From a virus, in the IMG/VR virus record IMGVR_UViG_3300022227_000005, positions 1-51,480 of that record: a DNA stretch of 51,480 nucleotides; one strand, written 5' to 3'. Position numbers and translations under genes: made by a program. Below, one piece after another: positions 24,558 through 51,243 of this stretch. A model generated the notes under the pieces. The model had not been told where the DNA came from. It worked only from the letters and a program-made list of their open reading frames with translations, and did not search any database. Within the stretch, counting starts at the first letter, position 1. Every line of letters begins with the position of its first letter.

Positions 24558-24749
24558 TTATCTCTTATACATTTTCATTAGTTTAGTTGCTTTAAGCTGA
24601 ACTCTTTTTAAGTTTGCGGCGGTTCTATCAGTTGTAAATCCGCCTTTGATATAATCTTCAAGATTATCCATTGCTTTGAATACTTTATCAAATTCAGTTC
24701 CTAGATACATTCTGGCCATATCATCATTGTGTGCTTCACTTAATTTCAT
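24558..24749 (-). CDS. Small helical protein with capsid-targeting-like N-terminus
   Basis: A 63-residue basic helical protein, MKLSEAHNDDMARMYLG, ending LMKMYKR. L-S-E then A at positions 3-6 fits a (L/I)-x-E prohead protease site. It overlaps the previous gene by four bases (ATGA type) and precedes gp14-like by three bases. No family recognised. Confidence 0.7.
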   Translation of the reverse strand: MKLSEAHNDDMARMYLGTEFDKVFKAMDNLEDYIKGGFTTDRTAANLKRVQLKATKLMKMYKR

Positions 24750-25123
24750 AATATACTCCGTGTTCTTTTTACTGTGTAGTATTTTCCAGTTAATTCAACA
24801 TTATAATATTTTCTTTCTAGTGCTTTCCAAGTACTCTTCGAATGGTCATTTAATGTTAAAGAGCTTCTAAATTCAACCTCATCATACAATTCAAGTATTC
24901 TCTTGATAGTCAATTCATACATCAACAATCCAATTCCTTTGCCTTGATGCCCAGGTTCTAATTCTGAATTGTCTATTTGAAAAACTTTTATACCATCTTT
25001 GCTTTTTTCTATGCTACCTGTTATTTCACCTGCCTTCTTTGTTTTCATTACATCTCTCAAAGTAGCAGTCCAACCTCTTTCAGTCCAATCTATATATAAA
25101 TTTACTTCGAAGAATTGTTTCAC
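24746..25123 (-). CDS. GNAT-like acetyltransferase-fold protein
   Basis: A 125-residue protein. The centre reads 'IDNSELEPGHQGKGIGLLMY' followed by ELTIKRILE, matching motif A of GNAT acetyltransferases (Q-G-x-G-I-G, acetyl-CoA phosphate binding), with a beta-alpha frame around it. 'NDHSKSTWKALERKYYNVEL' further on fits the later GNAT helix. GNATs transfer acetyl groups to amines; the target is unknown. It overlaps both neighbours by four bases. A similar role among packaged phage enzymes would be new, and this is inference. Confidence 0.7.
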   Translation of the reverse strand: MKQFFEVNLYIDWTERGWTATLRDVMKTKKAGEITGSIEKSKDGIKVFQIDNSELEPGHQGKGIGLLMYELTIKRILELYDEVEFRSSLTLNDHSKSTWKALERKYYNVELTGKYYTVKRTRSIL

Positions 25124-25584
25124 CAGTTTCTTTTAGCTTTCATTTTTTTGTATTCATCCCAATTGACTCTAGATCCAATGTATGGTTCTGAATCTTTATC
25201 TGTCCATTCATCTTCAGGATAAGTTTTCTTGAGATGTTTTTTCTGTGACTGTGTTTTCTTATTGAATTTACTTTTCTTTTTATATCCTCCCACGATTCCT
25301 CTAGCTTTACCAATATATTTTATAATTTCAGCACTATCAACTTCTACATCATCCCAAATACCTCTTTTTATTTTGCCAATTGGTTCTACTTCATAGACGT
25401 GCCAATCTTCTTTAACAGCATGTTTTAAAATTGAATGATGAGGGAGAGGCTTTGTAGTAAGGAAAACAGCATGATGCTGCCAACCTTTATCTTTATTGCC
25501 TCTACCTGGCGTCAATATAGAACCGAATTTTAAACGCTTAGGAGAAGCATGATAGAATTTTGTTATAGCTTCTATTAACTTCAT
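25120..25584 (-). CDS. Arr-like ADP-ribosyltransferase-fold protein with CTS-like N-terminus
   Basis: A 154-residue protein starting MKLIEAITKFYHASPKRL (ATG 25584, TAATG overlap with the previous stop). 'FYHASPKRLKFGSILTP', 'HAVFLTTKPLPHHSI' and 'WHVYEVEPIGKIKRGIWDD' followed by 'SAEIIKYIGKARGIVG' match, in order, the YHG(T)...G..L.(T/P)G, Y(F)..., V.EP.G...DD and (E)...(R)IVG blocks of rifampin ADP-ribosyltransferase (Arr). The catalytic His and an acidic site are present; the usual middle Tyr reads Phe. The C-terminal 45 residues are basic. Arr-fold enzymes use NAD+. L-I-E-A at positions 3-6 fits a prohead protease site. Confidence 0.7.
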   Translation of the reverse strand: MKLIEAITKFYHASPKRLKFGSILTPGRGNKDKGWQHHAVFLTTKPLPHHSILKHAVKEDWHVYEVEPIGKIKRGIWDDVEVDSAEIIKYIGKARGIVGGYKKKSKFNKKTQSQKKHLKKTYPEDEWTDKDSEPYIGSRVNWDEYKKMKAKRNW

Positions 25585-25952
25585 TACACATCCATTGGGC
25601 AATAAGAGCTGAAATTACTACTGTTCCAGAATTTTCTAATTTCAGCATCGTTTACGTTATGTTCTATTGTTTCACTATCTAGATATATCATCTTGCTCTT
25701 ATCTTTAGAATTTACATATACTACTTCACTAGGTATTAAAGCATATTCATAATCATCTTCATTTTTACCAACTTGATATATACTTCCTGATTTTAAAATC
25801 CAATTACCCACTTTTTTATCTAATTTTTTAGTGTCGTGGCACAGCGTCATGCCTCCGTAATTATCGGCACCGAAATCTTTATCCGGCTTCCATTTTTTAG
25901 TTTTACCTTTAAAAGAAGGTCTACCTTCTTGTAACAATGTTTTTAATTTCAT
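25584..25952 (-). CDS. Protein of unknown function with CTS-like N-terminus
   Basis: A 122-residue protein, MKLKTLLQEGRPSFKGKTKK and onward. L-Q-E then G at positions 7-10 fits a (L/I)-x-E prohead protease site. The body is beta-rich with aromatic residues (GNWILKSGSIYQVG, 'YEYALIPSEVVYV') and one late cysteine. It is the first of four overlapping genes inserted between gp13-like and gp14-like. Confidence 0.7.
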   Translation of the reverse strand: MKLKTLLQEGRPSFKGKTKKWKPDKDFGADNYGGMTLCHDTKKLDKKVGNWILKSGSIYQVGKNEDDYEYALIPSEVVYVNSKDKSKMIYLDSETIEHNVNDAEIRKFWNSSNFSSYCPMDV

Positions 25953-25963
25953 TTTTTCCTCCG

Positions 25964-27193
25964 TTATCCTGTGAAAATGATTGGTGCTGCGAAAGGTACT
26001 CTTTGGTATTGCAATTCAATAGCTTCAGCCAATTGTGCATCCTGTTCCATCAATCTAAGATTGGATGTTTCTTCTAGATTCTCGACAAGGGTTTCTTTCA
26101 ATTGTTCTTGTTTTTCCAACCCTTCAGCTACTAAAGCGTCTCCATCTAATGTAACTTCACTATTTGGAATTGGAACTGTTGAGAATTTTCTTCTTATTCT
26201 ACCCAATGTTTCCATACAAATACCCAGACAAAATTGTCTTATCCATCTTCTACCAAATGAATTTGTATCTTCGTATTTAATATCTTTGAAAGGAACATTT
26301 GAGATAGATGAAATTCCTGTTACTGATGGATCGCCTGTGTCTAAAGCATAATCAGGACCGAATGGATCCATATCAACTGTATAGTCTATCCATAGTTTTA
26401 TATCACGAGTAGGTTTTGGTAGGAATCGAATTCTATCACCAAAAATATTGTATGAGTGATTTGATCTTCTAACTCTATCATTAGTTTCCAACAACCCAGC
26501 CCTTAAAATATCAGTCCAAATCGGTAGCACATGGAATACTGTCTCATTCGAAAATGATTCATATTGAAATTCTTGTGATAAAACATTCAACGAAGAATAA
26601 GGATCATAATATCTATACATTGTTGCAGGTTCTGTATGCCAAACATCTCTAACTTCAATTCTTGCTCCAGCAACTGAGGCTAGATAGGCAGAAACAGATG
26701 ACCCTGATTCATTATCTGTAAAATCATCTAGCAAATCATAGTCAGTATCTGTTGCATTGATTGTGATATAAGCTCTTCTCTTATTTTGTACACCTCCAAC
26801 CCCAGCTTCAGTACCATATGGATTGGCTAATCTTCTAAGATAATCTAATGTTTGATGAGGTAGTTTGTTGGTGAAATCTTGTGTTGATTGGTCTCTCGAC
26901 AATCCAAGGAAGTTTGCTAACCAGTTCTTTGCTTGAAATCTATTGATCAATGCTGAATATTCTATATTAGCTTCTTCGAATGAAGCATAGATCTGTAAAT
27001 TATCTAATTCAACTGTAAGCTTGGGTTCACCAAGTCTATATCTAATCCACTTAACTATTTCAGCACCTTCAGCTGAAATTGATGTCAGGTCTGCGGATAG
27101 TACTAATGTCGATGCTGTTGTTCCAAATATTCCAGAATATCCAGCATCACTTCCACTGCTTGTTAATCCTGTAAAAAAATTCTCAAAAGACAT
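25964..27193 (-). CDS. Neck protein, gp13-like
   Basis: A 409-residue protein. Near residue 45 comes 'IVKWIRYRLGEPKLTVELDN' and then 'LQIYASFEEANIEYSALINR', matching the start of gp13-type neck proteins of T4-like marine phages. The middle has DILRAGLLETNDRVRRSNHSYNI-type strands (quoted in part: DRVRRSNHSYNIFGDRIRF) and 'RDIKLWIDYTVDMDPFG'. The helical C-terminus ends near 'VPFAAPIIF'. It is longer than T4 gp13 (309). It precedes gp14-like and gp15-like, as in T4. Confidence 0.7.
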   Translation of the reverse strand: MSFENFFTGLTSSGSDAGYSGIFGTTASTLVLSADLTSISAEGAEIVKWIRYRLGEPKLTVELDNLQIYASFEEANIEYSALINRFQAKNWLANFLGLSRDQSTQDFTNKLPHQTLDYLRRLANPYGTEAGVGGVQNKRRAYITINATDTDYDLLDDFTDNESGSSVSAYLASVAGARIEVRDVWHTEPATMYRYYDPYSSLNVLSQEFQYESFSNETVFHVLPIWTDILRAGLLETNDRVRRSNHSYNIFGDRIRFLPKPTRDIKLWIDYTVDMDPFGPDYALDTGDPSVTGISSISNVPFKDIKYEDTNSFGRRWIRQFCLGICMETLGRIRRKFSTVPIPNSEVTLDGDALVAEGLEKQEQLKETLVENLEETSNLRLMEQDAQLAEAIELQYQRVPFAAPIIFTG

Positions 27194-27229
27194 TCATATT
27201 CTCGCAATACGGTACACGCCACTTTTTTT

Positions 27230-27237
27230 ATAAATAT
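27230..27237 (-). promoter_or_regulatory. Late-promoter-like ATATTTAT motif upstream of the neck operon
   Basis: GTATATTTATAAAA on the coding strand, 37 bases before ATG 27193 and downstream of a strong terminator. Confidence 0.55.
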
Positions 27238-27251
27238 ACAGTTATATCGAT

Positions 27252-27336
27252 AAAAAAACCCTGCATGGGTTATTAATCTCTCATTCTAACTTACTTTCAC
27301 TTAGTCTGAATGTTGAAGAGATATACTCTTGCAGGG
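27252..27336 (-). terminator. Long-stem rho-independent terminator
   Basis: Outer stem CCCTGCA/TGCAGGG, inner stem ATCTCT/AGAGAT with CATTC/GAATG, then TTTTTTTAT on the coding strand. It separates the 27370-27795 gene from the neck operon. Confidence 0.85.
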
Positions 27337-27350
27337 CTTAAAGCTTCAAT

Positions 27351-27358
27351 ATAAATAT
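27351..27358 (-). promoter_or_regulatory. ATATTTAT motif between gene and terminator
   Basis: GATATTTATATTG on the coding strand just after the stop at 27370 and ahead of the structured terminator. If active it would make only a short structured RNA of about 90 nt. Confidence 0.3.
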
Positions 27359-27369
27359 CTATGAATATT

Positions 27370-27795
27370 CTAGTTTGACAATAAATTTCTTTCCATCAAA
27401 TAATAATCATTTCCTGTACCATTTACATGTTTGTCAAGGTAATGTTGAATCTTTTGATTCTTACTTGTTAGATTGATATAATTGGGTGGATTGTAGTTTT
27501 TCCTTGGTTTGAAGATATTTGATGCTAGGCCTACATATTCTACTCCACAGAACGATAGAGTACGATGATCTTTTCTTCCCAATATTCTTAACCAAGTCTT
27601 GTACAAGACGAGCTTCACAAAAAAGGCTCTGATAATCAATCTATTCAGAGCTTCTGCGTGTGTGATGTTGCTTGGAGCGTATTTTTTTGTTGGAATTAAA
27701 GTTTTGACATTAGATATTGGAGTTCCATCATCTTCGAATCCATCTAATGTTGACATTAAATCATCAATTTCACTTTGATCCATTACATCAGGCAT
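27370..27795 (-). CDS. Protein of unknown function
   Basis: A 141-residue protein starting MPDVMDQSEIDDLMSTLDG (ATG 27795), with GAGGAAGG ideally placed upstream. The same frame is open for 57 more codons to the right, but that stretch is covered by a tRNA-like element and reads as low-quality protein. The C-terminal half is basic with aromatics (LVLYKTWLRILGRKD, 'KNYNPPNYINLTSKNQKI'). No family recognised. Confidence 0.7.
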   Translation of the reverse strand: MPDVMDQSEIDDLMSTLDGFEDDGTPISNVKTLIPTKKYAPSNITHAEALNRLIIRAFFVKLVLYKTWLRILGRKDHRTLSFCGVEYVGLASNIFKPRKNYNPPNYINLTSKNQKIQHYLDKHVNGTGNDYYLMERNLLSN

Positions 27796-27815
27796 GTTTC
27801 CTTCCTCAAAAAATT

Positions 27816-27978
27816 TGCTAGGCCTTCCCGGATTTGAACCAAGTTCCCCTCCAACATTCTCAACAGGTTTCACACTTGTCCCCTGTTTTTTACCATTCGC
27901 CACAAATGGTCGAATGCGATGATTGATTGTGGCGATCAAGAGCATCAGGAGTGCTTTAGCCGCCATAAGCTAAAGGCC
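27816..27978 (-). ncRNA. tRNA-like RNA with an internal insertion
   Basis: The 5' end GGGCCTT pairs over seven bases with AAGGCCT near the 3' end (one G-T pair). After the 5' strand come TA, a D-arm (GCTT...AAGC with GG in the loop) and A. Before the 3' strand is a T-arm, CTTGG-TTCAAAT-CCGGG. The distance is 163 bases, about 90 more than a tRNA. The extra part contains the perfect inverted repeat TCGCCACAA/TTGTGGCGA (27896-27904 and 27926-27934). One reading gives an anticodon loop CT-CCT-GA (Arg), but then the D and anticodon stems compete. The 3' end is GCA, not CCA. It could be an intron-containing, long-variable-arm or decayed tRNA. Confidence 0.5.
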
Positions 27979-27992
27979 CATATATTACCACT

Positions 27993-28000
27993 AATAAATA
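27993..28000 (-). promoter_or_regulatory. Late-promoter-like ATATTTAT motif before the tRNA-like element
   Basis: GATATTTATTAG on the coding strand, 15 bases upstream of the 5' end of the tRNA-like RNA. The spacing suits transcription of that RNA and the gene after it. Confidence 0.5.
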
Positions 28001-28042
28001 TCAATTTTTAATCTTTGTTGAAACGATTGCATAGACCATATG

Positions 28043-28149
28043 CTAAATAGCAATGCTAATCCATACCCAAACAGCCACTTTCATTGCTGATTCCATTTCA
28101 AAACCTTTATTTTATTGAGCAGTTTATTCTCTAAGGGAGAGTTTGCTCA
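28043..28149 (-). other. Intergenic hairpin and possible 17-residue peptide
   Basis: A hairpin (TGAGCA/TGCTCA outer stem, CTCT/AGAG inside, 28116-28149) follows the stop at 28165 but lacks a T run. Below it ATG 28096 with AAAGG seven bases ahead opens a hydrophobic peptide, MESAMKVAVWVWISIAI, ending at 28043. Whether it is translated is unknown. Confidence 0.35.
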
Positions 28150-28164
28150 GGAGAGCCCTATGAT

Positions 28165-28629
28165 TTATACGAATGCTGTTTGAAGAGCTTCAAGAATCTT
28201 GGAAGCCTTTACAGACCGAGCCTTTTCATCCGAAGTGGAAACCAATTCCTCAACCAGCCGAACCACAAACTTTTGGGCCTTAGTACGTCGACCATAAGGC
28301 TTGTATTCAGAAACCCGAAAGGCCTTTTCAACCTTCTCATTCCAGCCAGGAGCCAAAATGTCCTTCACAAAAGCTGTAGTCTTTGGACCAACCTTTGTTC
28401 CAGTAGAAGTTCGAACCACGAACCAGCGATAAGATTCCTTATCCTTGGCCAAAATGTGATCGAAGTAATTAAAATTGGTAGGAACATTCTTGAATTCATC
28501 CGGAGTATTAGTCCGGTCATTCAAAACTTCCAATACTCGTGCTCTGGTTGCAGGCTCAACTTCATAAGCCTTTGTGCCATCAGCCTTTACCTTGTCCTTG
28601 TACATCTTGATACGAAACCGCTTAGCCAT
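28165..28629 (-). CDS. Early-type basic protein of unknown function
   Basis: A 154-residue basic protein, MAKRFRIKMYKDKVKADGTK, with helices and a lysine/arginine-rich part (YKPYGRRTKAQKFVVRL). It is preceded by GAGGTATAAG and, 49 bases upstream, by one of the six conserved promoters. Arginine codons lean to CGA/CGG, unlike the late genes. No domain recognised; nucleic-acid binding is possible from charge. Confidence 0.75.
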   Translation of the reverse strand: MAKRFRIKMYKDKVKADGTKAYEVEPATRARVLEVLNDRTNTPDEFKNVPTNFNYFDHILAKDKESYRWFVVRTSTGTKVGPKTTAFVKDILAPGWNEKVEKAFRVSEYKPYGRRTKAQKFVVRLVEELVSTSDEKARSVKASKILEALQTAFV

Positions 28630-28677
28630 CTTATACCTCCTCAGGTATTGTGTTGTGAAACATTCTATTGACAGTAT

Positions 28678-28706
28678 AATATAACAAATTCTTGATCGAT
28701 TGTAAA
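28678..28706 (-). promoter_or_regulatory. Early promoter P1
   Basis: TTTACA, 17-base spacer beginning ATCG, then TGT-TATATT on the coding strand. One of six promoters of the same design. Confidence 0.75.
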
Positions 28707-28756
28707 CTTAAAACCTCATTTTTTCTCCTTTTTTTCAAATTCGTCCAAAACCTTTG

Positions 28757-28990
28757 TCAAAATTTTCGCCATTCTTTTAGCGATCTGTTAAAGAAATAGT
28801 AATCGTCCTTACTAAGTAGTTCATCATTCTCCATCTCTTGAGCAATCTGACTTAGAAGTTCTAAAGGAAGCTCCATAGCTTCATAAAGTGCATCTCTATA
28901 ATCTTCTGGAATTTCGATATCTCATATATCCTCTTGAGCTTTAGTCAGCAAATCATAGCATCTCTTTACTGCCGGATCGGTGAATTCCAT
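28757..28990 (-). pseudogene. Small acidic gene with an in-frame TGA
   Basis: ATG 28990 overlaps the previous stop as TAATG. The frame reads MEFTDPAVKRCYDLLTKAQE-DI, then TGA (28924-28922), then DIEIPEDYRDALYEAMELPL and on to a TGA at 28757; 77 sense codons in all. The part after the TGA reads as normal acidic helical protein, so a nonsense mutation, a sequence error or stop-codon readthrough are all possible. No family recognised. Confidence 0.6.
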
Positions 28991-29556
28991 TAGGCATCCT
29001 TCTTTTCGAATAGACTTGGGAATTGCTTGTGAACTTCTCGGACCAGGTTATAAGCCTGAGATCGGTTTTTGTAAGGAATCATGATTGTGAATTTAACTTC
29101 TTCACCGGAACCTGAAATCGAAGCCGGGCCATGCCAACGTTCAATTTCATGCTCAGTTCGGATATTTTCAGCAATCTTCTCAGCAGCTTCGCGCCGGTTG
29201 TTTCGTTCGGCTCGTTCCTTCTGAAATTTCTTTTCCAGCTCAACTACTTCAACGATCTTTTCAATTACTCGATCGTAATCAAAATTCATTGTAGAAGCTT
29301 TGAGAGTAGAAGTTCGATATCCAGAACTTGAAGGCCAGTTAATCTTCATTTTCAAACTGTCATCAGGAAATCGGTTTGTAGCTTCATGCGCGAAGGTCTT
29401 CTCAAATTGAATATAAACCCCGACTCCATCAACTCTGCAAATCGAAGGAAGTGAATATATAGATTTTGAAGTCTCAACCTCATATCCCTTTTCCTCCAAC
29501 AAAATCTGGAAAGCGTTGATGTGAAGTTTGGCGAGGGTAGAATTCGTTGTACTCAT
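28990..29556 (-). CDS. Early-type protein of unknown function
   Basis: A 188-residue protein starting MSTTNSTLAKLHINAFQILL (ATG 29556 with GGAG six bases ahead). Residues 20-100 are alpha/beta with 'RVDGVGVYIQFEKTFAHEAT'. Residues 105-140 are a charged helix (ELEKKFQKERAERNNRREAA), and a beta-alpha end follows. It lies 114 bases downstream of promoter P2. No family recognised. Confidence 0.75.
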   Translation of the reverse strand: MSTTNSTLAKLHINAFQILLEEKGYEVETSKSIYSLPSICRVDGVGVYIQFEKTFAHEATNRFPDDSLKMKINWPSSSGYRTSTLKASTMNFDYDRVIEKIVEVVELEKKFQKERAERNNRREAAEKIAENIRTEHEIERWHGPASISGSGEEVKFTIMIPYKNRSQAYNLVREVHKQFPSLFEKKDA

Positions 29557-29669
29557 TTGCTTCTCCTTAAAAACCGTGATTTTGATTTTCCCAGGTATCA
29601 TTGCCCTCTGAGGGTCTTATAACCTTGTTTCCTGTCTGGAGGAAAACCGTATGTTTTTGTAACATGTAT

Positions 29670-29698
29670 AATATAACAAATCTAGCTTCGATATGAAA
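29670..29698 (-). promoter_or_regulatory. Early promoter P2
   Basis: TTTCAT-N17-TATATT with TGT ahead of the -10 box. The flanks (TGTTTCATATCG, ATTTGTTATATTATACATG) are shared with P3, P4 and P5. The terminator for the previous unit abuts its upstream side. Confidence 0.85.
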
Positions 29699-29710
29699 CA
29701 TAAAATCAAA

Positions 29711-29749
29711 TAAAAAACCAAATGAATAAAAAAAAACATCCATTTGGTT
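29711..29749 (-). terminator. Rho-independent terminator ahead of P2
   Basis: Stem AACCAAATG/CATTTGGTT with a T-rich loop, then TTTTTTATTTG on the coding strand, a few bases before the -35 box of P2. Confidence 0.85.
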
Positions 29750-29952
29750 CTAAACCGTACCGTTCTAAGGGTTTAACGATTCTGTGCGTATATCTGTATA
29801 AGTTATTGTATTATAATAAGTTAGGTATATCATAAGTGTTTGTAAAACAACAACTTAGGAGAGGCGTATAGAGTTGGTGTCAGAACGATTTAGATTCTTT
29901 TCTTGATAATTCATACATAACGACCTCCTCACGGCTCTCAGATCGTATTCCC
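29750..29952 (-). ncRNA. Intergenic element A (candidate small RNA or peptide leader)
   Basis: About 200 bases without a normal gene between the stop at 29953 and a terminator. It shares a 22-base identical stretch (29901-29922) and the 12-mer 'acaacttaggag' with element D at 43.6 kb. On the coding strand GAGGAGG stands five bases before ATG 29918, opening MYELSRKESKSF (stop at 29880). Element D encodes the related MYELSRWEFKSFRS. It also shares GGTTTAACGA and GTGCGTATAT with element B. Confidence 0.5.
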
Positions 29953-30201
29953 TCAGGAGCTCTGCTTTGTCTTCCTCAGCTTCCCTAGGTCAGCCACAGC
30001 TTTGATTTCCATCAGATTCAGGATGAAGGTTTTTCCATCGGTATTCTCAAATTCAAAAAATCCATCCCATTCTGGATTTCCAGAGTTTCGACGAATAGAT
30101 TCTCGTAATTCACCCAAAAATGCTGAAGCTTCGCTTGGAGATTTCACGTCAAACTCTCCAAAGTAAGTCCAGAATCTTAGTTTAAATTTGTATTCGTTCA
30201 T
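29953..30201 (-). CDS. Small protein of unknown function
   Basis: An 82-residue protein, MNEYKFKLRFWTYFGEFDVK, alpha/beta, with a basic end (KLRKTKQSS). It starts at ATG 30201, adjoining the previous stop. Last gene of the sigma-factor unit. Confidence 0.7.
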   Translation of the reverse strand: MNEYKFKLRFWTYFGEFDVKSPSEASAFLGELRESIRRNSGNPEWDGFFEFENTDGKTFILNLMEIKAVADLGKLRKTKQSS

Positions 30202-30431
30202 TATCTAGATGCATCCAAAACATCTGAATCTGTAAAATTATCATCCAATAACCATTGAATAGCTATATAGTTCTTGAGAATTTCATCTATCGTATTTCTT
30301 CTATTGACCAATCTCTTTATTCTTACTTCTCCTTCATTGACAGTGTCAATATACAGAGGATCGGCTCTTAGTCTTGTTATTTCAGTATCTAAAGCATTTT
30401 TCAATCTTATAACTTCTTGAATCTTCTTCAT
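30201..30431 (-). CDS. Small helical protein
   Basis: A 76-residue protein, MKKIQEVIRLKNALDTEITR, mostly coiled coil up to residue 55 with an acidic end (DDNFTDSDVLDASR). It overlaps the exonuclease gene by four bases. No family recognised. Confidence 0.7.
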   Translation of the reverse strand: MKKIQEVIRLKNALDTEITRLRADPLYIDTVNEGEVRIKRLVNRRNTIDEILKNYIAIQWLLDDNFTDSDVLDASR

Positions 30432-30979
30432 TTATTCTCCTTGATAAATTTTTCTATGTCGAGATGATTACATATTCTTGCTGCATTTTTTGCATCGGCT
30501 AGAGCTCTATGATTAGTTCCTTCAAATTCCAATCCTAGAAACTTTAGAGCATTCACTACTCCTACTTTTTCTTTGTATTGCCAGTTGAATACTGTTTTTA
30601 GATTGATGTGCCTCATTGTAAAATCAGGAAGTTCCCACCATCGACAATCTCTCTTCCACTGTCTTTTATCAAAATCATCCCAAGATGCCCAGGGAGGATA
30701 GCCGAACGATGCAAATATATTATACATCGTATTATGTGCATCTATGAATAGTGGAGCACATTCAACTTTTTCTTGAGTTATTCCAGTAAGCTCCATACAA
30801 AATTTATCAAGCTCTGGATTTCTAGAAGGTCTTACAAATGTTTCAAATGCACCTGTAGATATTTTGCAACTAGTTTCATGAACAACTAGACCTATCTCAA
30901 TGATTTCAGTTTCATTCCTAGATTTTTCTGGATGTCCTCGCCAGCAAGTGGCCTCAAAATCTATGATGATTATGTTCAT
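30428..30979 (-). CDS. DEDDh 3'-5' exonuclease (ERI-1/RNase T-like)
   Basis: A 183-residue exonuclease domain. Exo I is 'IIIIDFEATCWRGHPEKSRN' (D7, E9) with EIIEIG following. Exo II is near 'ASWDDFDKRQW'. Exo III is 'GTNHRALADAKNAARI', giving the H-x-A-x-x-D form. All catalytic acids and the histidine are present. It would trim RNA or single-stranded DNA ends using two metals. T4 itself has DexA of the same superfamily. It overlaps both neighbours by four bases. Confidence 0.88.
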   Translation of the reverse strand: MNIIIIDFEATCWRGHPEKSRNETEIIEIGLVVHETSCKISTGAFETFVRPSRNPELDKFCMELTGITQEKVECAPLFIDAHNTMYNIFASFGYPPWASWDDFDKRQWKRDCRWWELPDFTMRHINLKTVFNWQYKEKVGVVNALKFLGLEFEGTNHRALADAKNAARICNHLDIEKFIKENK

Positions 30980-31323
30980 TCGTGATATTCACTTTCGCTT
31001 ATATTTCCAAATGCTATTTGCCTATGACCATTTCCTTGCTTGTAAGAGAAAACATCATCCTTTTCTTTGTAGTCAATATCGATTATGTTCTTGATGTTCC
31101 TTAATACGAGCATGAATCTCTTGCAAGCCCATTTAGTTCCTTCGAACAATTGAATCGAGCTTCTTTCATTTCCTCCATATCCCATAGTATCTTTACTAGC
31201 TAGAACATGAAATTCATCTCCGAGTACATTTGGATTTATTCTGATTCTATTAAAATCTGATATATCTACTAATTCGCCATTTGGAATTCTTATCCACTCT
31301 TCTGACATTTTTGACATAACCAT
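30976..31323 (-). CDS. Protein of unknown function
   Basis: A 115-residue protein, alpha/beta, with IRIPNGELVDISDFNRIRI early and 'KRFMLVLRNIKNIIDIDY' in the second half. ATG 31323 overlaps the zinc-protein gene by 34 bases; an internal ATG at 31308 is an alternative start. No family recognised. Confidence 0.65.
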   Translation of the reverse strand: MVMSKMSEEWIRIPNGELVDISDFNRIRINPNVLGDEFHVLASKDTMGYGGNERSSIQLFEGTKWACKRFMLVLRNIKNIIDIDYKEKDDVFSYKQGNGHRQIAFGNISESEYHE

Positions 31324-31445
31324 TTTCTTCTTTCTTCGACATAAGTTGTCGAGTCTAAAGGGAATTCAGTTTGACAGCCTTCACACCACTCGGTCGTTTG
31401 TGCAAATTCTGCTGATTTGGGATCATGTCTACCATCATTTGGCAT
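31290..31445 (-). CDS. Small zinc-ribbon protein
   Basis: A 51-residue protein starting MPNDGRHDPKSAEFA (ATG 31445, AAAGGG upstream). CEGC near residue 22 and CQKC near residue 46 form a four-cysteine zinc site. Longer starts overlap the preceding gene in another frame. Probably a small regulator or protein-interaction module. Confidence 0.6.
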   Translation of the reverse strand: MPNDGRHDPKSAEFAQTTEWCEGCQTEFPLDSTTYVEERRKWLCQKCQKSG

Positions 31446-31461
31446 GATCCCTTTTAGCTTT

Positions 31462-31668
31462 CTAAGATTCATGATCGCTAGGGCCTTCCCAAGCGCGGGG
31501 ACCTTCCCAGGGATGAGGATGTTTCCATTCTCTGGGCTTAATAAATTCATCATAAGTTTCCTCGTGACGAATAATTTTACCTTCGAGATGTTTGATTCTT
31601 TCTTTTATGTCTTTCATATCTGCAAGACACGTCTTCAACTCTTGTAATATTTCAGCATGTTCTGTCAT
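31462..31668 (-). CDS. Small coiled-coil protein with WEGP repeats
   Basis: A 68-residue protein starting MTEHAEILQELKTCLADMKD (ATG 31668, AAAGG seven bases ahead). The first 40 residues are coiled coil and the end has repeated W-(E)-(G)-P units (HPWEGPRAWEGPSDHES) in locally GC-rich DNA. It follows the structured leader at 31669-31762. Confidence 0.65.
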   Translation of the reverse strand: MTEHAEILQELKTCLADMKDIKERIKHLEGKIIRHEETYDEFIKPREWKHPHPWEGPRAWEGPSDHES

Positions 31669-31762
31669 CTCATAACCTTTCATTAGCCGAGGACCTATCC
31701 GGCTTCAGCATCCCTCGACTTGCTCCAGAGGTTGGAAATTCCAACGTGACCGGAACAGCTAT
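31669..31762 (-). promoter_or_regulatory. Structured leader RNA candidate
   Basis: A 94-base gap that is much more GC-rich than its surroundings. On the coding strand TTCCGG pairs with CTGGAG around an inner TTGGAA/TTCCAA hairpin. Then CGAGG...CCTCG and the overlapping AGCCG...CGGCT can form alternative helices that end just before AAAGG of the next gene. Such mutually exclusive stems next to a ribosome site are typical of cis-regulatory RNAs. I could not match a named riboswitch class. Confidence 0.5.
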
Positions 31763-40573: not shown

Positions 40574-40760
40574 TATTTTGTTTTCCCTTAAAATTTATAG
40601 TTGCAACAGCGCGTGCTTCTTCAGTATCAAAAAACACTCTATGGTCACCAACAGGAACATCTATTCGATTTTCAACATACTCGAGAACAGCTTGTTCAAG
40701 TTCGATCTGATTCAGCTTAATTGTTATAATTGATGAGAAAGTCCTGCATATCATTTTCAT
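40566..40760 (-). CDS. Small protein with a start altered by duplication
   Basis: A 64-residue frame ending RAVATINFKGKQNNA, with 'IKLNQIELEQAVLEYVENR' as the first well-formed part. The first ten residues (MKMICRTFSS) are encoded by a copy of the 43-base repeat also found inside the upstream gene, so the original start was probably replaced. It resembles the gene at 40388 in layout (a helix ahead of a short strand pair). Confidence 0.5.
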   Translation of the reverse strand: MKMICRTFSSIITIKLNQIELEQAVLEYVENRIDVPVGDHRVFFDTEEARAVATINFKGKQNNA

Positions 40761-40983
40761 TGTCGATTAGATCCATCATTTCGTTTTCCTTACTGTAATT
40801 TCATATTCGCTTTGATCGGGAAGAGTTAGAACTAATCCTTTTGCTTCAGTTCCATAAATCGTGTCGAAATCCAAAACCGAAACATAATTTCCCTCATCTT
40901 CACAATTCAATCCCTGTTGAAGATTCCATTCTTCAATCATATTGATGAGAAAGTCCTGCATATCATTTTCATTGTCGATTAGA
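40729..40983 (-). repeat. 43-base perfect direct repeat
   Basis: Copies at 40729-40771 and 40941-40983, 212 bases apart. The second copy encodes part of the N-terminus of the 40776-40991 protein (DNENDMQDFLIN). The first lies at the start of the next gene in another frame. Confidence 0.95.
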
Positions 40984-40991
40984 ATAGACAT
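40776..40991 (-). CDS. Small acidic protein of unknown function
   Basis: A 71-residue protein, MSILIDNENDMQDFLINMIE, with 'GNYVSVLDFDTIYGTEAKGL' and a basic end. AAGGAGAAAATT precedes the start. Its beginning lies in the 43-base repeat. Confidence 0.65.
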   Translation of the reverse strand: MSILIDNENDMQDFLINMIEEWNLQQGLNCEDEGNYVSVLDFDTIYGTEAKGLVLTLPDQSEYEITVRKTK

Positions 40992-41037
40992 AATTTTCTC
41001 CTTTGATCCTATTAATCAATTTCTTTTCCTTTTTAAA

Positions 41038-41234
41038 CTACGTATACATTCCTTTAGAAACCGCCAGGAGAGCATTATATTCTCCACTCAATCTTGATGC
41101 TTGATCTTTGAGTTCTTTGAATAAATCAGAATCATTGTTTCCAAAAATATTTTTTCCATTCTTTTTGCTATCTCGGTCTGGCTAGTTATGATTTCTCCCA
41201 TTCGGAATGTAACTTTATTCACATTAACAATCAT
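41038..41234 (-). pseudogene. Small gene interrupted by a one-base shift
   Basis: ATG 41234 (TAATG overlap) opens MIVNVNKVTFRMGEIITSQT and 'EIAKRMEKIF'. At a T5 run (41143-41147) sense continues one base out of phase as GNNDSDLFKELKDQASRLSG then 'EYNALLAVSKGMYT' to TAG 41038. In the original frame it runs into unlikely sequence and TGA. One extra T would restore a 65-residue protein. Mutation, error or -1 frameshift are possible. Confidence 0.6.
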
Positions 41235-41434
41235 TATATCACTCTCATCTTTCCTACTAGTCGTTGTCCAAAATCAATGTCGCAATCTACTTTGCAATCT
41301 TCAGGCTTTCCAATTTTCACCCATTCGTCGTAGACCTTTTCAAATATACTGTCTATCATCAAGTGAGCTTCATCAGTAATTCCAGTTACATTTTTGTCGA
41401 ATAATTCTTGAACCTGGTCTTGTCTGATTCTCAT
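41234..41434 (-). CDS. Small protein of unknown function
   Basis: A 66-residue protein, MRIRQDQVQELFDKNVTGIT, with 'KPEDCKVDCDIDFGQRLVG'. It starts one base after the lipoprotein stop region and overlaps the next start. No family recognised. Confidence 0.65.
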   Translation of the reverse strand: MRIRQDQVQELFDKNVTGITDEAHLMIDSIFEKVYDEWVKIGKPEDCKVDCDIDFGQRLVGKMRVI

Positions 41435-41435
41435 T

Positions 41436-42236
41436 CTATAAATCCTTATCTAGAATTTTCTTTACATTATCGTATGACTTGCTAATGCGATGTTTGACCT
41501 TCATAATAGAATATCCATTATCTCCTGTTGGTAAGTCTTCTATCAGAGCGTCTACATGTCTTCGAATATATTTTTTTCTATTTTTTGAACTAGGGTGAGT
41601 CGATGTCCATTCGACCAATTTGTTCATATCATTTTCGATTTTATCGAGAAATGTTAGAAACGCCCAAGGATAGTAGTTGTGTCGCGAAAGGTTGTCTACT
41701 CCATAATAATCAGCTTCTTTCTCAGATTCTCTGCTATTTTTGAGTAATATTAACGTTGAGCCTATAAGGATTTTATCTTTTATAGAAGGTTTTTTGTGAA
41801 ATATTGCTTCACCTGCGATTTGTAAGCCAGTGTGTGAAGTTATAGCTTTAGCCGAGTGCTTTTTTTCTATGTGACCTATTTCGTGGCTAATTACACTGGC
41901 AAGTTCATCTTCAGAATCAGAAGCTAATATTAAGCTTGAGGTTACATATATCCAGCCTCCCAGGACAGCGAACGCATTGATACTTTTATCCAAAATTACT
42001 TTAAATTTATAAGTCACGTTGCTTCTTTTAGAATTACTGGTTAGCGATTGGCCTAAACTGTCGATATATGAATTGACAATTTCATTACGGCACATCTCTA
42101 GTTTTTTCTCTATATAACTTGAATACTCTTCTCCCATTTTAATTTCGTCTGATGTAGAAACTAAATTGATATTTCTAAGTGATGCGCAAGAATTTAGCGA
42201 AGAAATAATCAAGATTGTCGTTATTAATAATTTCAT
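41436..42236 (-). CDS. M48-family metalloprotease lipoprotein
   Basis: A 266-residue protein. Residues 1-17 are a lipoprotein signal (MKLLITTILIISSLNSC, lipobox L-N-S-C). The body is an M48 peptidase like BepA/LoiP: 'GGWIYVTSSLILASDSEDEL', 'VISHEIGHIEKKHSA' (HExxH with both histidines), 'NSRESEKEADYYGVDNLSRH' (third zinc ligand E) and 'EWTSTHPSSKNRKKYI'. It should be exported and lipid-anchored facing the periplasm, where host relatives degrade misassembled outer-membrane proteins. A phage copy in an early-type unit suggests envelope remodelling or exclusion; that is inference. Confidence 0.9.
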   Translation of the reverse strand: MKLLITTILIISSLNSCASLRNINLVSTSDEIKMGEEYSSYIEKKLEMCRNEIVNSYIDSLGQSLTSNSKRSNVTYKFKVILDKSINAFAVLGGWIYVTSSLILASDSEDELASVISHEIGHIEKKHSAKAITSHTGLQIAGEAIFHKKPSIKDKILIGSTLILLKNSRESEKEADYYGVDNLSRHNYYPWAFLTFLDKIENDMNKLVEWTSTHPSSKNRKKYIRRHVDALIEDLPTGDNGYSIMKVKHRISKSYDNVKKILDKDL

Positions 42237-44492: not shown

Positions 44493-46223
44493 TTAGTATG
44501 ATGCAGGAGATCCAATTACATTAAGATCAACAACCGTAATTGTTCCGTAGTATTCTGGACGGACCATCTGTGTAGCTGCTCTGTGCATAACACCCTTACG
44601 TGGAGTAAAGTCGTTAGGTTCAAAGATAGTTGGTGTAACTACCAATGGAACATATGGAGCATATACAAATCCGGAATCCAAGAATCCAGCTCCCTTATAA
44701 CCCATCAACAATCTATGATGAGGGAAATAAGGATCCTTATAAACAGTAAACCTGTTTGTAAGTGAACCAGTCTTTTCAATACCCAAAGAGTACTGAACTT
44801 CTGTTGGATCGAAGACTGCATTTGGTTTGAATGTAGCAATTGATTCAATGACTGAAGCAATTTCAGGACTGCAGATCAACCAGTTAGCACCCGATCTAAG
44901 ATTTCTCTTATGGATTTCATTCGAAACAGTTGTGATTGTTTCACCAAGAGTCTGGTACCAATCTTGCTGTGTTCCGTGGAAGTCCTGTGTTGATTCGGAT
45001 GTGTTGGCCAATGATACTGTAGAAACAACATCATTTGCACCCCAAGATACATAACGTCCAATCATTCTTGACCAAGCAGCTCTAACGGAAGCACCTGAAA
45101 GAAGCTGACCAAGAATATCTCTGTCAATTTCTGTTGAGATGATTTCAGAAAGAATTGTTGTCAATTCAACTTCAGCATCAAGAGCATGATAAGCGTTAAG
45201 ATCCTGAGCAAGCTCTGGTGTCCATGTAGCTTTCAACTTTCTTGTTTGAGCTGTAACAGCAACCGAACTAACCGATAGGTTAATTTCTGGAATAGCTGAT
45301 GTAGATTCAAAATCGCCAAGGTTGTTTGTTCCACTATCTGAGGATACGTTAGATCTTGCAGGTCCAACTAAAACTGTTGCCGAAACACCAGCGACCCATG
45401 AACTATCATATCCAGCAGATCCAATAGCACCAACACCTGCCTGAGTTGTAAAGACCTGAACAACACCAGCTGTAACAACTGTCATTGTATGATCAAATTT
45501 ACCCCAAAGGGAAGTACCAGATACAGAGTGGAGTGCCCACAAAGTTCTAAATGTTTTGGTTGAATCGCGATTCAATTCACCAGAAGTCGAAGGTCTGATT
45601 TCATGAAGTGAAGCAAGGTCTGTAGAACCAGATGCGACCAGTGTGAAGTTGTAACCTGAAACTGTAGCACCACCAAGTAGTTCAGATGTTGCTGTAACGC
45701 CTGAGTATGTTGGAGCTGCATTTGACAATCTGAAGATTCTCTTGGAATATCCGGATTGCATGTTGTAAAATCCACCAGATGCTGTTTGTTCACCAACTGC
45801 ATCTAGCTGAGGATTGTTATTTGGTGGAGCATTGTCAAGTATTCCATAAACTGATCCACCACTTGTTACACCTGACTTATTTCTATCAAACTTGAAGTCA
45901 AGGAAAAAAAGCAAACCAGATGGAAGGCTCATTGGCTGAACTGAAACGATTTCATTAGCAAGCAACTGTCCAAAAACTCTACGGACAAGAGGAAAGGCAA
46001 TCTTGTTAAAGTTTGCAACGTTTCCTGTCTGAGTTGCCTCATTCATGTTACGCTTAAGTTCGATTGCCTGATTTTCTAGCAATCTTGCCACGACAGAGCT
46101 CTTACCTTCGTCGAGTTTCTTAAGAAGACCAGTGCGACCCCATTTTTCTGCGAGTTTCTTCATTTCAACACGAAGGTCTCTTTCAGAGTGGTCCTTGGTC
46201 ATTTGTTCAATAATATTTTCCAT
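44493..46223 (-). CDS. 23: Major capsid protein, gp23 family
   Basis: A 576-residue protein. The first 60 residues are helical and charged and end near 'SSVVARLLENQAIELKRNMN', where LLE|N is a plausible prohead protease site, as the T4 protein also loses its N-terminus. 'KIAFPLVRRVFGQLLANEIV' and 'SVQPMSLPSGLLFFLDFKFD' are typical of the HK97-fold gp23 family. Later come 'KLKATWTPELAQDLNAYHAL' and 'GANWLICSPEIASVIESIAT'. The C-terminal 'EYYGTITVVDLNVIG' matches gp23 endings. A strong terminator follows. Confidence 0.95.
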   Translation of the reverse strand: MENIIEQMTKDHSERDLRVEMKKLAEKWGRTGLLKKLDEGKSSVVARLLENQAIELKRNMNEATQTGNVANFNKIAFPLVRRVFGQLLANEIVSVQPMSLPSGLLFFLDFKFDRNKSGVTSGGSVYGILDNAPPNNNPQLDAVGEQTASGGFYNMQSGYSKRIFRLSNAAPTYSGVTATSELLGGATVSGYNFTLVASGSTDLASLHEIRPSTSGELNRDSTKTFRTLWALHSVSGTSLWGKFDHTMTVVTAGVVQVFTTQAGVGAIGSAGYDSSWVAGVSATVLVGPARSNVSSDSGTNNLGDFESTSAIPEINLSVSSVAVTAQTRKLKATWTPELAQDLNAYHALDAEVELTTILSEIISTEIDRDILGQLLSGASVRAAWSRMIGRYVSWGANDVVSTVSLANTSESTQDFHGTQQDWYQTLGETITTVSNEIHKRNLRSGANWLICSPEIASVIESIATFKPNAVFDPTEVQYSLGIEKTGSLTNRFTVYKDPYFPHHRLLMGYKGAGFLDSGFVYAPYVPLVVTPTIFEPNDFTPRKGVMHRAATQMVRPEYYGTITVVDLNVIGSPASY

Positions 46224-46264: not shown

Positions 46265-47158
46265 TTAAAGTCCTGCAATTTCAGACATTCTAGAGAATTC
46301 TGATCCTGCGGATTCGTTAAGTGTACTGCGTACTGAAGGAACATTAGGTCTAGAAACACGGTGTTTTCTAACTCTATTTGAGGATCTATAAGCTTCTTTA
46401 AGAGCCTTATAAGTTCTCTTAACTTCATTGACAGATTCACAATCATCAAACTTATCAATAAGTCTATCCTTTTCAAACTTTGTCATTGTTACTTCACCCA
46501 TGATTCTTGATACACCGGCTAGACGTGCATTAAAGAGGTTGACTTCCTTAATATGATCACGCATTGTTCCAAGTGCTGTTTCAAGCTGAGTGATACGGCT
46601 GGACTGTTTCTTAGCGTAAGCCTTGAGACGCTTGTTTTCCCGAGTAAGAGCAGCTTCTTCAAAGTCATCTTCTGGTTCATCATCACCAAAATCAATGTCT
46701 TCTTCATCATCACCCATTTCAGTTATATCATCTTCAACGATTTCGATAACATCATCTTCTTCATCGTCAATATCCATGTCGACATCATCTTCTTCTTCAT
46801 AACCCATATCCAAATCGTCATCATCCTCATAGTCCATATCATCATCATCGAGGAAATCATCTTCTTCAAGCCCAGCTTCAATTACTGCTGGTCCATCACC
46901 TTCATCTGAAAGATCATCACCTGTATCACCTACTGCAGGTTGGTTATCACCTGATCTCTTCTGTTCACCATCTTCATCGTAATCAGAAGGAGGGTCGCCC
47001 CCTGCACCAAGTTCTTCATTGATAGCTCTTGATACGGTTTCTTTGAGTCGATTAGACATAGCATCAGCAATAACTCCCTTTGCTGATTCCAAAGCTGTTG
47101 CCTTAACCTTATGGGCTTCTTCAACAGCTTCTTCAATAATATCTTTCTTTTTTGCCAT
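46265..47158 (-). CDS. 22: Prohead scaffold/core protein, gp22-like
   Basis: A 297-residue protein with a helical N-terminus (MAKKKDIIEEAVEEAHKVKA), a very acidic middle (residues 60-170, long runs of D and E) and a helical C-terminus ('TKFEKDRLIDKFDDCESVNE') ending SEIAGL. Acidic, helical and directly upstream of the capsid gene is the T4 gp22 plan. The core is normally destroyed by the prohead protease, and several (L/I)-x-E sites are present. The protease gene is not in this window. Confidence 0.85.
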   Translation of the reverse strand: MAKKKDIIEEAVEEAHKVKATALESAKGVIADAMSNRLKETVSRAINEELGAGGDPPSDYDEDGEQKRSGDNQPAVGDTGDDLSDEGDGPAVIEAGLEEDDFLDDDDMDYEDDDDLDMGYEEEDDVDMDIDDEEDDVIEIVEDDITEMGDDEEDIDFGDDEPEDDFEEAALTRENKRLKAYAKKQSSRITQLETALGTMRDHIKEVNLFNARLAGVSRIMGEVTMTKFEKDRLIDKFDDCESVNEVKRTYKALKEAYRSSNRVRKHRVSRPNVPSVRSTLNESAGSEFSRMSEIAGL

Positions 47159-47212
47159 TTCTAAAATTCTCCGTTAATAAAATTAATTAGCTTTTGAACA
47201 TGCTAATTTAAT

Positions 47213-47220
47213 ATAAATAT
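47213..47220 (-). promoter_or_regulatory. Late-promoter-like ATATTTAT motif upstream of the scaffold gene
   Basis: TATATTTATATTAA on the coding strand, 55 bases before ATG 47158; followed by a small TTAGC/GCTAA hairpin. Confidence 0.55.
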
Positions 47221-47246: not shown

Positions 47247-47456
47247 CTAACTCAAATCCTGCATATCCCTACCGTCAGATAACTTTTTACGTCTTCTTTT
47301 TAATCTTTTCTTTGCAGATGGTTTAATGAAATAATCATGCCGCCTCATCTCTACAAATCTGTCATCCCTTTTCAACTTTTGCTTGAACCTTCTTAAAGCA
47401 TATTCTATATCTTCGCCCGGCTTTACTTCTACCGAGAGTGGACCATTACTATTCAT
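47247..47456 (-). CDS. rpsU: Ribosomal protein bS21
   Basis: A 69-residue protein aligned along its length with bacterial bS21: 'VEVKPGEDIEYALRRFKQKL' against the V-x-V-x-x-x-E-x-(F/I)-x-x-A-L-R-R-F-K block, then 'EMRRHDYFIKPSAKKRLKRR' against E-V-R-R-R-E-x-(Y/F)-x-K-P, and a basic end. bS21 sits at the anti-Shine-Dalgarno side of the 30S subunit and exchanges easily. Phage-encoded bS21 is known from marine phages and is thought to steer translation to phage messages. It lies between an exported protein and the scaffold gene. Confidence 0.9.
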   Translation of the reverse strand: MNSNGPLSVEVKPGEDIEYALRRFKQKLKRDDRFVEMRRHDYFIKPSAKKRLKRRRKKLSDGRDMQDLS

Positions 47457-49685: not shown

Positions 49686-49889
49686 TCAACCCCATCGCGT
49701 AATTGGTAGAATATCAATTGCCTTTTTCATATCTTCATATGGCACTTGTACTCTACCATTTTGAATTCTAGTTTCTAATCCATGTTTTTGTAACAACTTA
49801 GCAGCCTTTTCGAGCTTCAAATTGCCTAGCTGGTATTGTCTCCAACCAACCCATTTTTTAGTTTCGCTAAATGCTTCTCGTAGTTTCAT
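49686..49889 (-). CDS. Small protein with capsid-targeting-like N-terminus
   Basis: A 67-residue protein starting MKLREAFSETKKWVGWRQYQ (ATG 49889, GGAG nine bases ahead). L-R-E then A fits a (L/I)-x-E prohead protease site. The rest is a helix-strand unit ('KAAKLLQKHGLETRIQNGRV') of possible winged or SpoIIID-like shape. An upstream frame extension lacks a ribosome site. Confidence 0.7.
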   Translation of the reverse strand: MKLREAFSETKKWVGWRQYQLGNLKLEKAAKLLQKHGLETRIQNGRVQVPYEDMKKAIDILPITRWG

Positions 49890-49936
49890 ATTTATTTCTC
49901 CTAGTATAGCTAGTGTAGCCCGAATCAACTCAACTT

Positions 49937-50674
49937 TTAAAGTGTGCTTTTAAGATAACCTGCACCTGTATTGCTCATGTATTTCTTGAGTACTCTTCCT
50001 AATTCGAACCAAAACAATCTTTGAACTCCAGGGCCCTTTAGATTTCCCGCTTTCTTTTCTATATCGGAGAATTTCTTCATGGCCATTTCTATTTTTTTAA
50101 TTATAGCTCGACCTGCTTGAGCTCCACCTTTAGCATCACCATATTTGAGATCATCTGGTTCATAATTTTTGTTGATGTAGTAATCTAAATTTGTTGCTTC
50201 TTCACCAACTTCAAGTTCACTGAGAATTTCTCTAACAACATCTTTAATTTCTGATTTCTTGATTTTCATTTTCTGCTCCACTTTTATTTTTCTTTTCTTG
50301 AGAGATTTTATAAATTGCTTTATTGTTATTAGATCATTGACCTCACCGGATGTAACTTTTCCAATAAGCATATTGATGTGGTGTCTTCTAATCGTTTTGT
50401 CTTGAATCAAATTTGGATGTTCATTAAATAGAATATCAATAGCTCTGTCTATAAGCTGTTGTTCTATATGGGGATCGACTTTGGATTCTGGTCCATAAGG
50501 ATCACCCTTCTTATTAGCCTTAGGATCTGTGTCTCTTTGATAACCTTTATTTGTCCAAGTCGTAAAGGTTCCAATCTTTAGATCACCTCCACCTCCTGGA
50601 TGTCTAAAACCTGTTGTTGTACTAGTAAACTGTGGAGAAGTGTGAATTTGTTCACCGGCTTCTTTTAGTTTCAT
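49937..50674 (-). CDS. Two-part protein with capsid-targeting-like N-terminus
   Basis: A 245-residue protein starting MKLKEAGEQIHTSPQFTSTT (ATGA overlap). L-K-E then A fits a prohead protease site. A Gly/Thr-rich linker leads to a helical part ('VDPHIEQQLIDRAIDILFNE'). Near residue 135 a second start-like segment occurs, MKIKKSEIKDVVREILSELE, close to the N-terminus of the next gene upstream (MKINRKDLKDIIRPIVEDAV). It may be a fusion of two cargo-type proteins. Confidence 0.7.
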   Translation of the reverse strand: MKLKEAGEQIHTSPQFTSTTTGFRHPGGGGDLKIGTFTTWTNKGYQRDTDPKANKKGDPYGPESKVDPHIEQQLIDRAIDILFNEHPNLIQDKTIRRHHINMLIGKVTSGEVNDLITIKQFIKSLKKRKIKVEQKMKIKKSEIKDVVREILSELEVGEEATNLDYYINKNYEPDDLKYGDAKGGAQAGRAIIKKIEMAMKKFSDIEKKAGNLKGPGVQRLFWFELGRVLKKYMSNTGAGYLKSTL

Positions 50675-50829
50675 ATCATTTTGCTCAAGTAATAAATAAC
50701 TTTTGATAGTTTAACATTTTTAATATGTGAATGTTGGATCTTAGATGAAATCCACTTTTCAAATTCAGGCGCTAAGACTTCAGCTGCTTCTTCTTTTGTG
50801 AAGCCTTCTTTTAGTTGCCTGAGTTTCAT
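50671..50829 (-). CDS. 52-residue protein with capsid-targeting-like N-terminus
   Basis: ATG 50829 to TGA 50671: MKLRQLKEGFTKEEAAEVLA, then 'PEFEKWISSKIQHSHIKNVK' and a hydrophobic end. L-K-E then G at positions 6-9 fits a prohead protease site. The stop overlaps the next ATG as ATGA. No family recognised. Confidence 0.65.
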   Translation of the reverse strand: MKLRQLKEGFTKEEAAEVLAPEFEKWISSKIQHSHIKNVKLSKVIYYLSKMI

Positions 50830-50832
50830 TCA

Positions 50833-51243
50833 TTATCTCGATGCTTTACGCAAAGCCTCACATGCTTTATCTAATTGTTTCCCAGCAGCCCATATAGCTT
50901 TAGCTCTTTTAGGATCATCACCTTGCATCATATCTACCAAATCTTGTATGTCCATAAGATCTTCTACACACGATTCATATGCTTGATTTACAATATCTCT
51001 CCAACCATCACCAGTAATTTCTTCAGTTATTCCCAATCGTCTAGTTTCATCATTAACTCTGTCATTGACTAGAGAATCATATCTTTCTTTCTCTACTGCA
51101 TCATCATCAGGTTGAATAGCATTAGGATCATTTTCTTTTTTGAATTTAAGCTGATCAGATCTAACATAATCGTGCATATCTTTGACAGCATCTTCAACGA
51201 TAGGTCTGATAATATCCTTAAGGTCTTTTCTGTTAATTTTCAT
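50833..51243 (-). CDS. Helical protein with MKI..KDLKDII N-terminus
   Basis: A 136-residue acidic protein, MKINRKDLKDIIRPIVEDAV, with 'GWRDIVNQAYESCVEDLMDI' and 'AKAIWAAGKQLDKACEALRK'. N-termini of the type MKIx(K/R)xxLK(D/Q)II are frequent in marine phage head-region proteins. I-V-E then D at positions 15-18 could be a cleavage site. Function unknown. Confidence 0.7.
   Translation of the reverse strand: MKINRKDLKDIIRPIVEDAVKDMHDYVRSDQLKFKKENDPNAIQPDDDAVEKERYDSLVNDRVNDETRRLGITEEITGDGWRDIVNQAYESCVEDLMDIQDLVDMMQGDDPKRAKAIWAAGKQLDKACEALRKASR

Follow-up and report, generated by a model that had tools for sequence, protein, structure and literature searches.

Seven small genes of a T4-like virus fragment share an N-terminal leader, M-K-L followed shortly by an (L/I)-x-E site, at a frequency above chance both in the fragment and in its relatives. 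These leaders are probably cleavable propeptides that would target proteins to the capsid or prohead core, with one island of genes supplying candidate injected cargo and the genes between protease and capsid more likely serving as core or head components. The DNA analyzed here (the window) is the 51,480-base virus fragment IMG/VR IMGVR_UViG_3300022227_000005, which is coding almost entirely on the minus strand. Judged by the capsid protein, the annotated phages nearest to it are Microcystis phage Mel-JY01, uncultured phage LR756508, Flavobacterium phages immuto, and Rhodothermus phage RM378. In addition, 15 IMG/VR relatives were fetched, the best of which have capsid proteins 74 to 77% identical to that of the window.

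Seven small genes with a common leader

All seven genes of the original prediction, which start with M-K-L and carry (L/I)-x-E-(A/G) inside ten residues, are present, lie on the minus strand, and begin with ATG. They are listed below with a slash at the predicted cut.

9040-9264, minus strand: MKLKEVISE/A, 74 aa; sits between tail-module genes
24558-24749, minus strand: MKLSE/A, 63 aa; island gene; start and SD seen; mature pI 9.6
25120-25584, minus strand: MKLIE/A, 154 aa; island gene; mature pI 9.8
25584-25952, minus strand: MKLKTLLQE/G, 122 aa; island gene; body without known family
49686-49889, minus strand: MKLRE/A, 67 aa; mature pI 10.0
49937-50674, minus strand: MKLKE/A, 245-aa fusion
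50671-50829, minus strand: MKLRQLKE/G, 52 aa

An automatic gene call blind to the motif retained six of the seven starts. Those of 9040, 25120, and 49686 are internal ATGs within slightly longer open reading frames. The 49686 start has a clear AGGAG and the 9040 start a weaker GAG-type site, while the start of 25120-25584 overlaps the upstream stop (TAATG).

The N-terminal motif exceeds chance expectation

The motif was counted as [LI]xE[AG] in residues 2 to 13 and compared with internal windows of the same genes. The (L/I)-x-E rule was not fitted to the window, because it is the already published specificity of the T4 gp21 protease (consensus, L/I-X-E; PMC9026906). Eight of 72 window genes carry the motif at the N terminus, whereas internal windows predict 0.81 (P = 1.7e-6). 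In 5000 trials with residues 2 to 21 shuffled, the mean was 1.1 and the maximum 6, so that 8 was never reached. The motif is present in 7 of the 10 MKL starters and in 1 of the 62 other genes (P = 6e-7); this sole exception is the scaffold protein at 46265, an expected protease substrate. The background set consisted of 2.14 Mb of other viral contigs, namely, the flanks of pattern-scan matches with the selected genes removed. Across its 3327 genes, the N-terminal motif rate of 1.4% equals the internal rate (ratio, 1.02) and is exceeded by that of the window (P = 1.7e-5). The search of N termini against a shuffled background that had been proposed for this DNA thus reveals an excess in the window, replicated in relatives (see below), and the MKL start with the motif is indeed commoner here than among genes of the other viral contigs (7/72 versus 5/3327; P = 1e-9).

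MKL/MKFxEA starts turn up in many unrelated phage genes, as seen among the matches listed in a scan of the viral_contigs set. A lone MKLxEA start is not diagnostic, and the signal is carried by clustering, rate, and context. A swapped control (MKLxAE, viral_contigs) was discarded as confounded, many of the matches listed being gp21 proteases that start with MKLIAE.

Leaders of two types in related viruses

In six relatives (G002 to G007), 32 of 34 MKL starters have [LIV]xE in residues 2 to 13, whereas 9 of 38 background MKL starters do (P = 4e-10). Counted per gene, MKL with [LIV]xE occurs in 32/409 genes of these relatives and 9/3362 background genes (P = 6e-24), although the P values for relatives overstate independence, as some tagged genes are homologs of one another (G005 and G006). 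In some contigs whose capsids are distant (G007 and G010 to G012), little or no enrichment is seen. The residue following E (P1') is loose in the relatives (A, N, E, D, K, and others), with some leaders lacking A/G/S at this position, and the exact cut rule is uncertain as a result.

These counts also bear on a nonfunctional origin of MKLxE, by translation-start bias (A-rich early codons) or by duplication of one ancestral start. MKL starts are common and homology exists among some tagged genes of G005 and G006, as such an origin would predict, but few background MKL starters carry [LIV]xE, the background N-terminal rate does not rise above the internal one, and the tagged bodies represent unrelated folds. 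Translation-start bias is ruled out by the 2.1-Mb background rates, and the nonfunctional account as a whole is highly implausible.

A second leader type is a longer K-rich helix, MKIKKSELKxIIxEVLxE, exemplified by MKIKKSELKQIIKEVIEE/G. It is carried by 9 of 409 genes of relatives and 12 of 63 in LR756508, compared to 0 of 3513 in the background. Within the window, it is internal to the fused gene 49937-50674 and also fronts the following gene:

50833..51243, minus strand: 136-aa protein with type-2 leader MKINRKDLKDIIRPIVE/D; resembles L001:8717-8953 (MKVSKSEIKSIIREVLNE/M)

Tagged items beyond the seven leaders are the scaffold at 46265, the type-2 leader of 50833, and the internal leader within 49937. 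Leaders of a similar kind occur in a cultured relative. In Flavobacterium phage immuto (NC_055915), the starts MRLLELLREA, MKKSQLRQIIKEA, and MKKLIRIVEAG are found just upstream of the terminase. No description of this leader pair was found in the literature searched, which left most subscription journals outside its reach. Both the internal proteins of T4 and phage ADP-ribosyltransferases that are packaged are already known (PMC9026906, PMC9503650).

Protease, capsid, and scaffold

A gp21-type prohead protease was searched for in the 51-kb window and is absent from it. Since 10 of 12 related contigs encode the corresponding domain (PF03420; gp21, peptidase S77) immediately before the capsid gene, the protease gene is expected just beyond position 51480; by synteny to L001 and L003, the end of the window coincides with the protease place. 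The potential substrates among the head proteins are as follows.

44493..46223, minus strand: major capsid protein, gp23-like (phrog_138, 7.3e-71)
46265..47158, minus strand: acidic scaffold-like protein in the gp22 position, MAKKKDIIEE/A; directly upstream of the capsid gene

In the capsid protein, E62 belongs to the cleavage site NMNE/A and lines up with E65 of the T4 gp23 site, FLTE/A. E62 is invariant across 10 sequences, and the next residue varies (A, N, E, D), so the cognate protease may tolerate residues other than A/G in that position.

Alternatively, the leader could be an uncleaved binding peptide for the portal, scaffold, or a tail chaperone, with L-x-E as part of a binding helix. 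The loose P1' residue and the leaders without A/G/S after E are consistent with this, as are the long leaders, which are predicted to be helical. Against it, the capsid protein follows the same rule at the position where cleavage is proven for gp23, and the family of gene 9040 keeps its glutamate (E9 invariant in three homologs) despite differing leader lengths (ISE/A, LDE/A, ISE/G). We consider an uncleaved peptide improbable.

Removal of the leaders would leave mostly basic proteins. The mature pI is above 8.5 for 6 of 7 tagged proteins compared to 13 of 47 other small proteins (P = 0.006), pI not having been a criterion in picking the seven, and relatives display the same trend (P = 0.003). 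PHROGs and Pfam scans of the seven proteins gave no match to an IP family. Taken together, the enrichment, the relatives' protease, the capsid site, and the basic bodies argue for the part of the original prediction that concerned a shared, capsid-targeting-like, and probably cleavable leader.

A variable island of candidate cargo

The three tagged genes at 24558-25952 form an island with a fourth gene, within an operon headed by a neck gene.

24746..25123, minus strand: 125-aa GNAT-like protein; GTG start; QGKGIG motif by eye
25964..27193, minus strand: neck/head-tail adaptor-like protein, 409 aa (phrog_211 head-tail adaptor Ad2, 8.3e-12); heads the island-containing operon

The neck protein has 69 to 76% identical relatives in L025 to L028. 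L025, L026/L027, and L028 lack the island, and in these relatives its two flanking genes, the neck gene and a gene for a 178-residue protein, are adjacent. Two copies of the promoter-like element TATTTATA lie on the coding strand upstream of the neck gene (27229-27236 and 27350-27357), which fits a possible coexpression of the island with head and neck genes. The T4-late element TATAAATA was rejected as a candidate: in coding orientation it has only three sites, two of them within genes, and it is the reverse complement, TATTTATA, that is enriched.

The 25120-25584 product is the strongest cargo candidate of the set. Residues 10 to 73 match Pfam PF12120 (Arr-ms) with 14.9 bits, below the cut-off of 25 (E value, 0.031, or 0.0011 for the record), and the motifs FYHAS...PG...VFLT...VYEVEP follow one another in Arr order by eye. 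This hints weakly at an Arr-like ADP-ribosyltransferase body. Its single-sequence AF2 model (pLDDT, 41) is uninformative on an ART fold, and no homolog was found in viral_contigs, genome_contigs, or phages, nor did a sequence search of the PDB find one. Among 193 genomes of one phylum, none had an Arr domain at E ≤ 0.001. The GNAT-like protein scores 12.4 bits against Pfam PF00583, under the cut-off of 20.7 (E = 0.19); its leader, MKQFFE/V, matches the tag only poorly, and no homolog was detected in viral_contigs or phages. Likewise, 25584-25952 has no homolog in viral_contigs or annotated phages.

Recognized enzymes are found behind the leaders of relatives. These include a CCA-adding enzyme (L004:4311-5765; PF01743, 1e-21) and, in a series of tagged genes that precedes the terminase in G005 and G006, a zeta-toxin/AAA_33 kinase (4e-8) and a pterin-4a-carbinolamine dehydratase (1e-16). 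Motifs suggestive of ADP-ribosyltransferases, (L)YRGT/LYH(A/V)T, occur in several of the LR756508 tagged genes, and two match PTS_2-RNA weakly.

Genes between protease and capsid, and gene 9040

The three genes at 49686-50829 lie in the counterpart of the protease-to-capsid stretch of relatives. Gene 49937-50674 encodes two domains, each behind a leader: the N-terminal leader precedes a helical domain kept in relatives, and an internal type-2 leader (MKIKKSEIKDVVREILSELE/V) precedes the second. An alignment of seven homologs has L-x-E near the N terminus in all; the second domain is fused only in L003, and the second half of the window protein resembles the stand-alone gene L004:6988-7293. The structure model for this family is modest (pLDDT, 58.5). 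The neighboring 50671-50829 is similar in sequence to L004:772-945 (MQLATLLE/A). Their place between protease and capsid and the conservation of the 49937 family, retained in six relatives, make these genes more likely prohead-core or head components than cargo.

One could extend this assignment to every tagged protein, the leaders being processed and all bodies being prohead-core or scaffold parts, like gp67 and gp68, that give the head its shape and are afterwards degraded or remain inside, with none injected as an effector. The T4 core proteins gp67 and gp68 are likewise gp21 substrates (PMC9026906), many tagged genes of relatives lie between the protease and capsid genes, and the retention of the 49937 family agrees as well. 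However, there are recognized enzymes among the tagged bodies, and the window island is missing in three relatives, unlike what would be expected of an essential core protein. Such a core-only role for all is unlikely, and we favor the division into candidate cargo and core or head components. The island is the best-supported and probably injected part of the set, judging from its gene content and distribution.

The seven genes had been placed beside scaffold or neck genes, which does not hold for 9040-9264. This gene lies among tail genes, and its role is uncertain. The window also holds a tail tube gene.

10419-10916: tail tube

Consequently, the proposal that all seven proteins are cargo delivered into the host was too broad, given the conserved 49937 family and the position of 9040; it is best supported for the island.

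Proposed mechanism and comparison with known systems

By analogy with T4, we infer targeting, cleavage, and packaging of tagged proteins and the injection of some. The propeptide would come in two forms, a short MKL(x)nL-x-E and the longer K-rich helix MKIKKSELKxIIxEVLxE. Tagged proteins would be made late in infection, and their leaders would bind the assembling scaffold core, so that the proteins become enclosed in the prohead. A gp21-type protease would then cut after E, leaving basic mature proteins in the head, where they may remain associated with the genome. Some of them, chiefly the products of the island, including the ADP-ribosyltransferase-like protein, would enter the host alongside the DNA, and the genes between protease and capsid would more likely serve the core or head.

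In T4, a ten-residue stretch of IPIII is enough for packaging (PMC9026906). The capsid-targeting sequence of T4 IPI to IPIII (MKTYQEFIAE/A) is likewise a short MK leader cut after (L/I)-x-E, on small, basic, and fast-changing bodies encoded near late or head genes. It differs from the leaders described here in its residues (MKL... here), in its length (10 compared to 5 to 9), and in the absence of an additional longer helical type; moreover, the tagged bodies of relatives include larger recognized enzymes. The five-residue MKLSE is shorter than any proven T4 leader (7 to 10). Alt of T4 is an ADP-ribosyltransferase carried in the head and passed into the host along with the DNA (PMC9026906). 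It combines an N-terminal gp21-cut propeptide with an ADP-ribosyltransferase, a combination that 25120-25584 may share, but belongs to the Alt/VIP2 family (682 aa), in contrast to the small, putatively Arr/KptA-like body here (149 aa, below-threshold match).

The ejection (inner body) proteins of the giant phages phiKZ and SPN3US similarly have many head propeptides removed after E by a gp21-related protease. However, their propeptides can be long, and no common short start was found in the literature searched. Finally, virion-packaged NAD-ADPr enzymes include ADP-ribosyltransferases encoded beside head genes, for which Iyer and colleagues proposed packaging (PMC9503650). Their case rests on gene context and MuF/portal fusion, and the passages found mention no N-terminal address leader.

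A broader reading is that, in an uncultured T4-like clade, MKLxE and MKIKKSELKxIIxEV form a general capsid-loading code by which dozens of unrelated proteins per genome are packaged and then injected as a takeover kit prepared in advance, including an ADP-ribosyltransferase, a CCA-adding enzyme, a zeta-toxin-like kinase, and a pterin dehydratase. We put this forward tentatively, as a serious possibility that falls a little short of even chances. Injected phage effectors are hard to spot, as their bodies evolve fast and lack recognizable likeness. If the reading is true, a leader recognizable from sequence alone would turn the search for effectors into a motif scan across a large group of uncultured phages, and the injected proteome would become predictable ahead of experiment. 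The leaders would also be new short packaging tags, and the T4 internal-protein idea would extend to recognized enzymes of RNA, NAD, and pterin metabolism.

Promoter-like element and gene content

Reading in gene orientation, 11 coding-strand copies of TATTTATA were found in the window, including those at 47212-47219, 39328-39335, 27229-27236, 19919-19926 and 13505-13512. Although 90% of the fragment is coding, nine of the 11 copies are intergenic, located 36 to 157 bases upstream of the next gene start. The reverse complement of TATTTATA is TATAAATA, the T4 late promoter box. TATTTATA is a candidate late promoter of this clade.

The following additional genes were located:

47247-47456, minus strand: phage-encoded ribosomal protein bS21 (TIGR00030, 2.9e-14)
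41436-42236, minus strand: putative lipoprotein-like M48-type metalloprotease (HEIGH motif, read from the sequence)
19060-19881 and 20373-22955, minus strand: HNH homing endonuclease (phrog_559, 1e-15) beside tail fibre gene
13911-17890, minus strand: putative carbamoyltransferase-like genes (by reading), inserted between the tail sheath and tail fibre genes

The bS21 gene lies between the scaffold and the protease-side genes. Relatives carry small genes resembling it at the equivalent place, and RpsU is annotated in Microcystis phage Mel-JY01. The tail fibre neighboring the endonuclease has a weakly endonuclease VII-like C-terminus (phrog_3281, 0.008). Genes similar to the metalloprotease-like and carbamoyltransferase-like genes occur in a compared viral locus (L003:19285-20046) and an IMG/VR relative (G004:31807-32955), respectively.

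Leader-bearing genes and similar starts in other phages

Upstream of terminase, the IMG/VR relatives G005 (14021-17081) and G006 (5229-9332) contain a run of MKL-leader genes; one member encodes a pterin dehydratase and another a kinase of the zeta-toxin-like type. A further recurrent start, MKLxEA(K/L)xxLxxxGFxxE, is present in two genes per locus in L095, L149 and L166, among the viral contig matches listed; it may mark a separate family or another leader type.

In the uncultured phage LR756508, approximately eight genes (25802-31681 and 40030-41510) start with MRLKEILLE-, MKLKGILKEA- or MKFKELLKE-type leaders. Several carry ADP-ribosyltransferase-like (L)YRGT or LYH(A/V)T motifs, and two weakly match PTS_2-RNA. 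The LR756508 genes could represent an expanded family of packaged ADP-ribosyltransferases.
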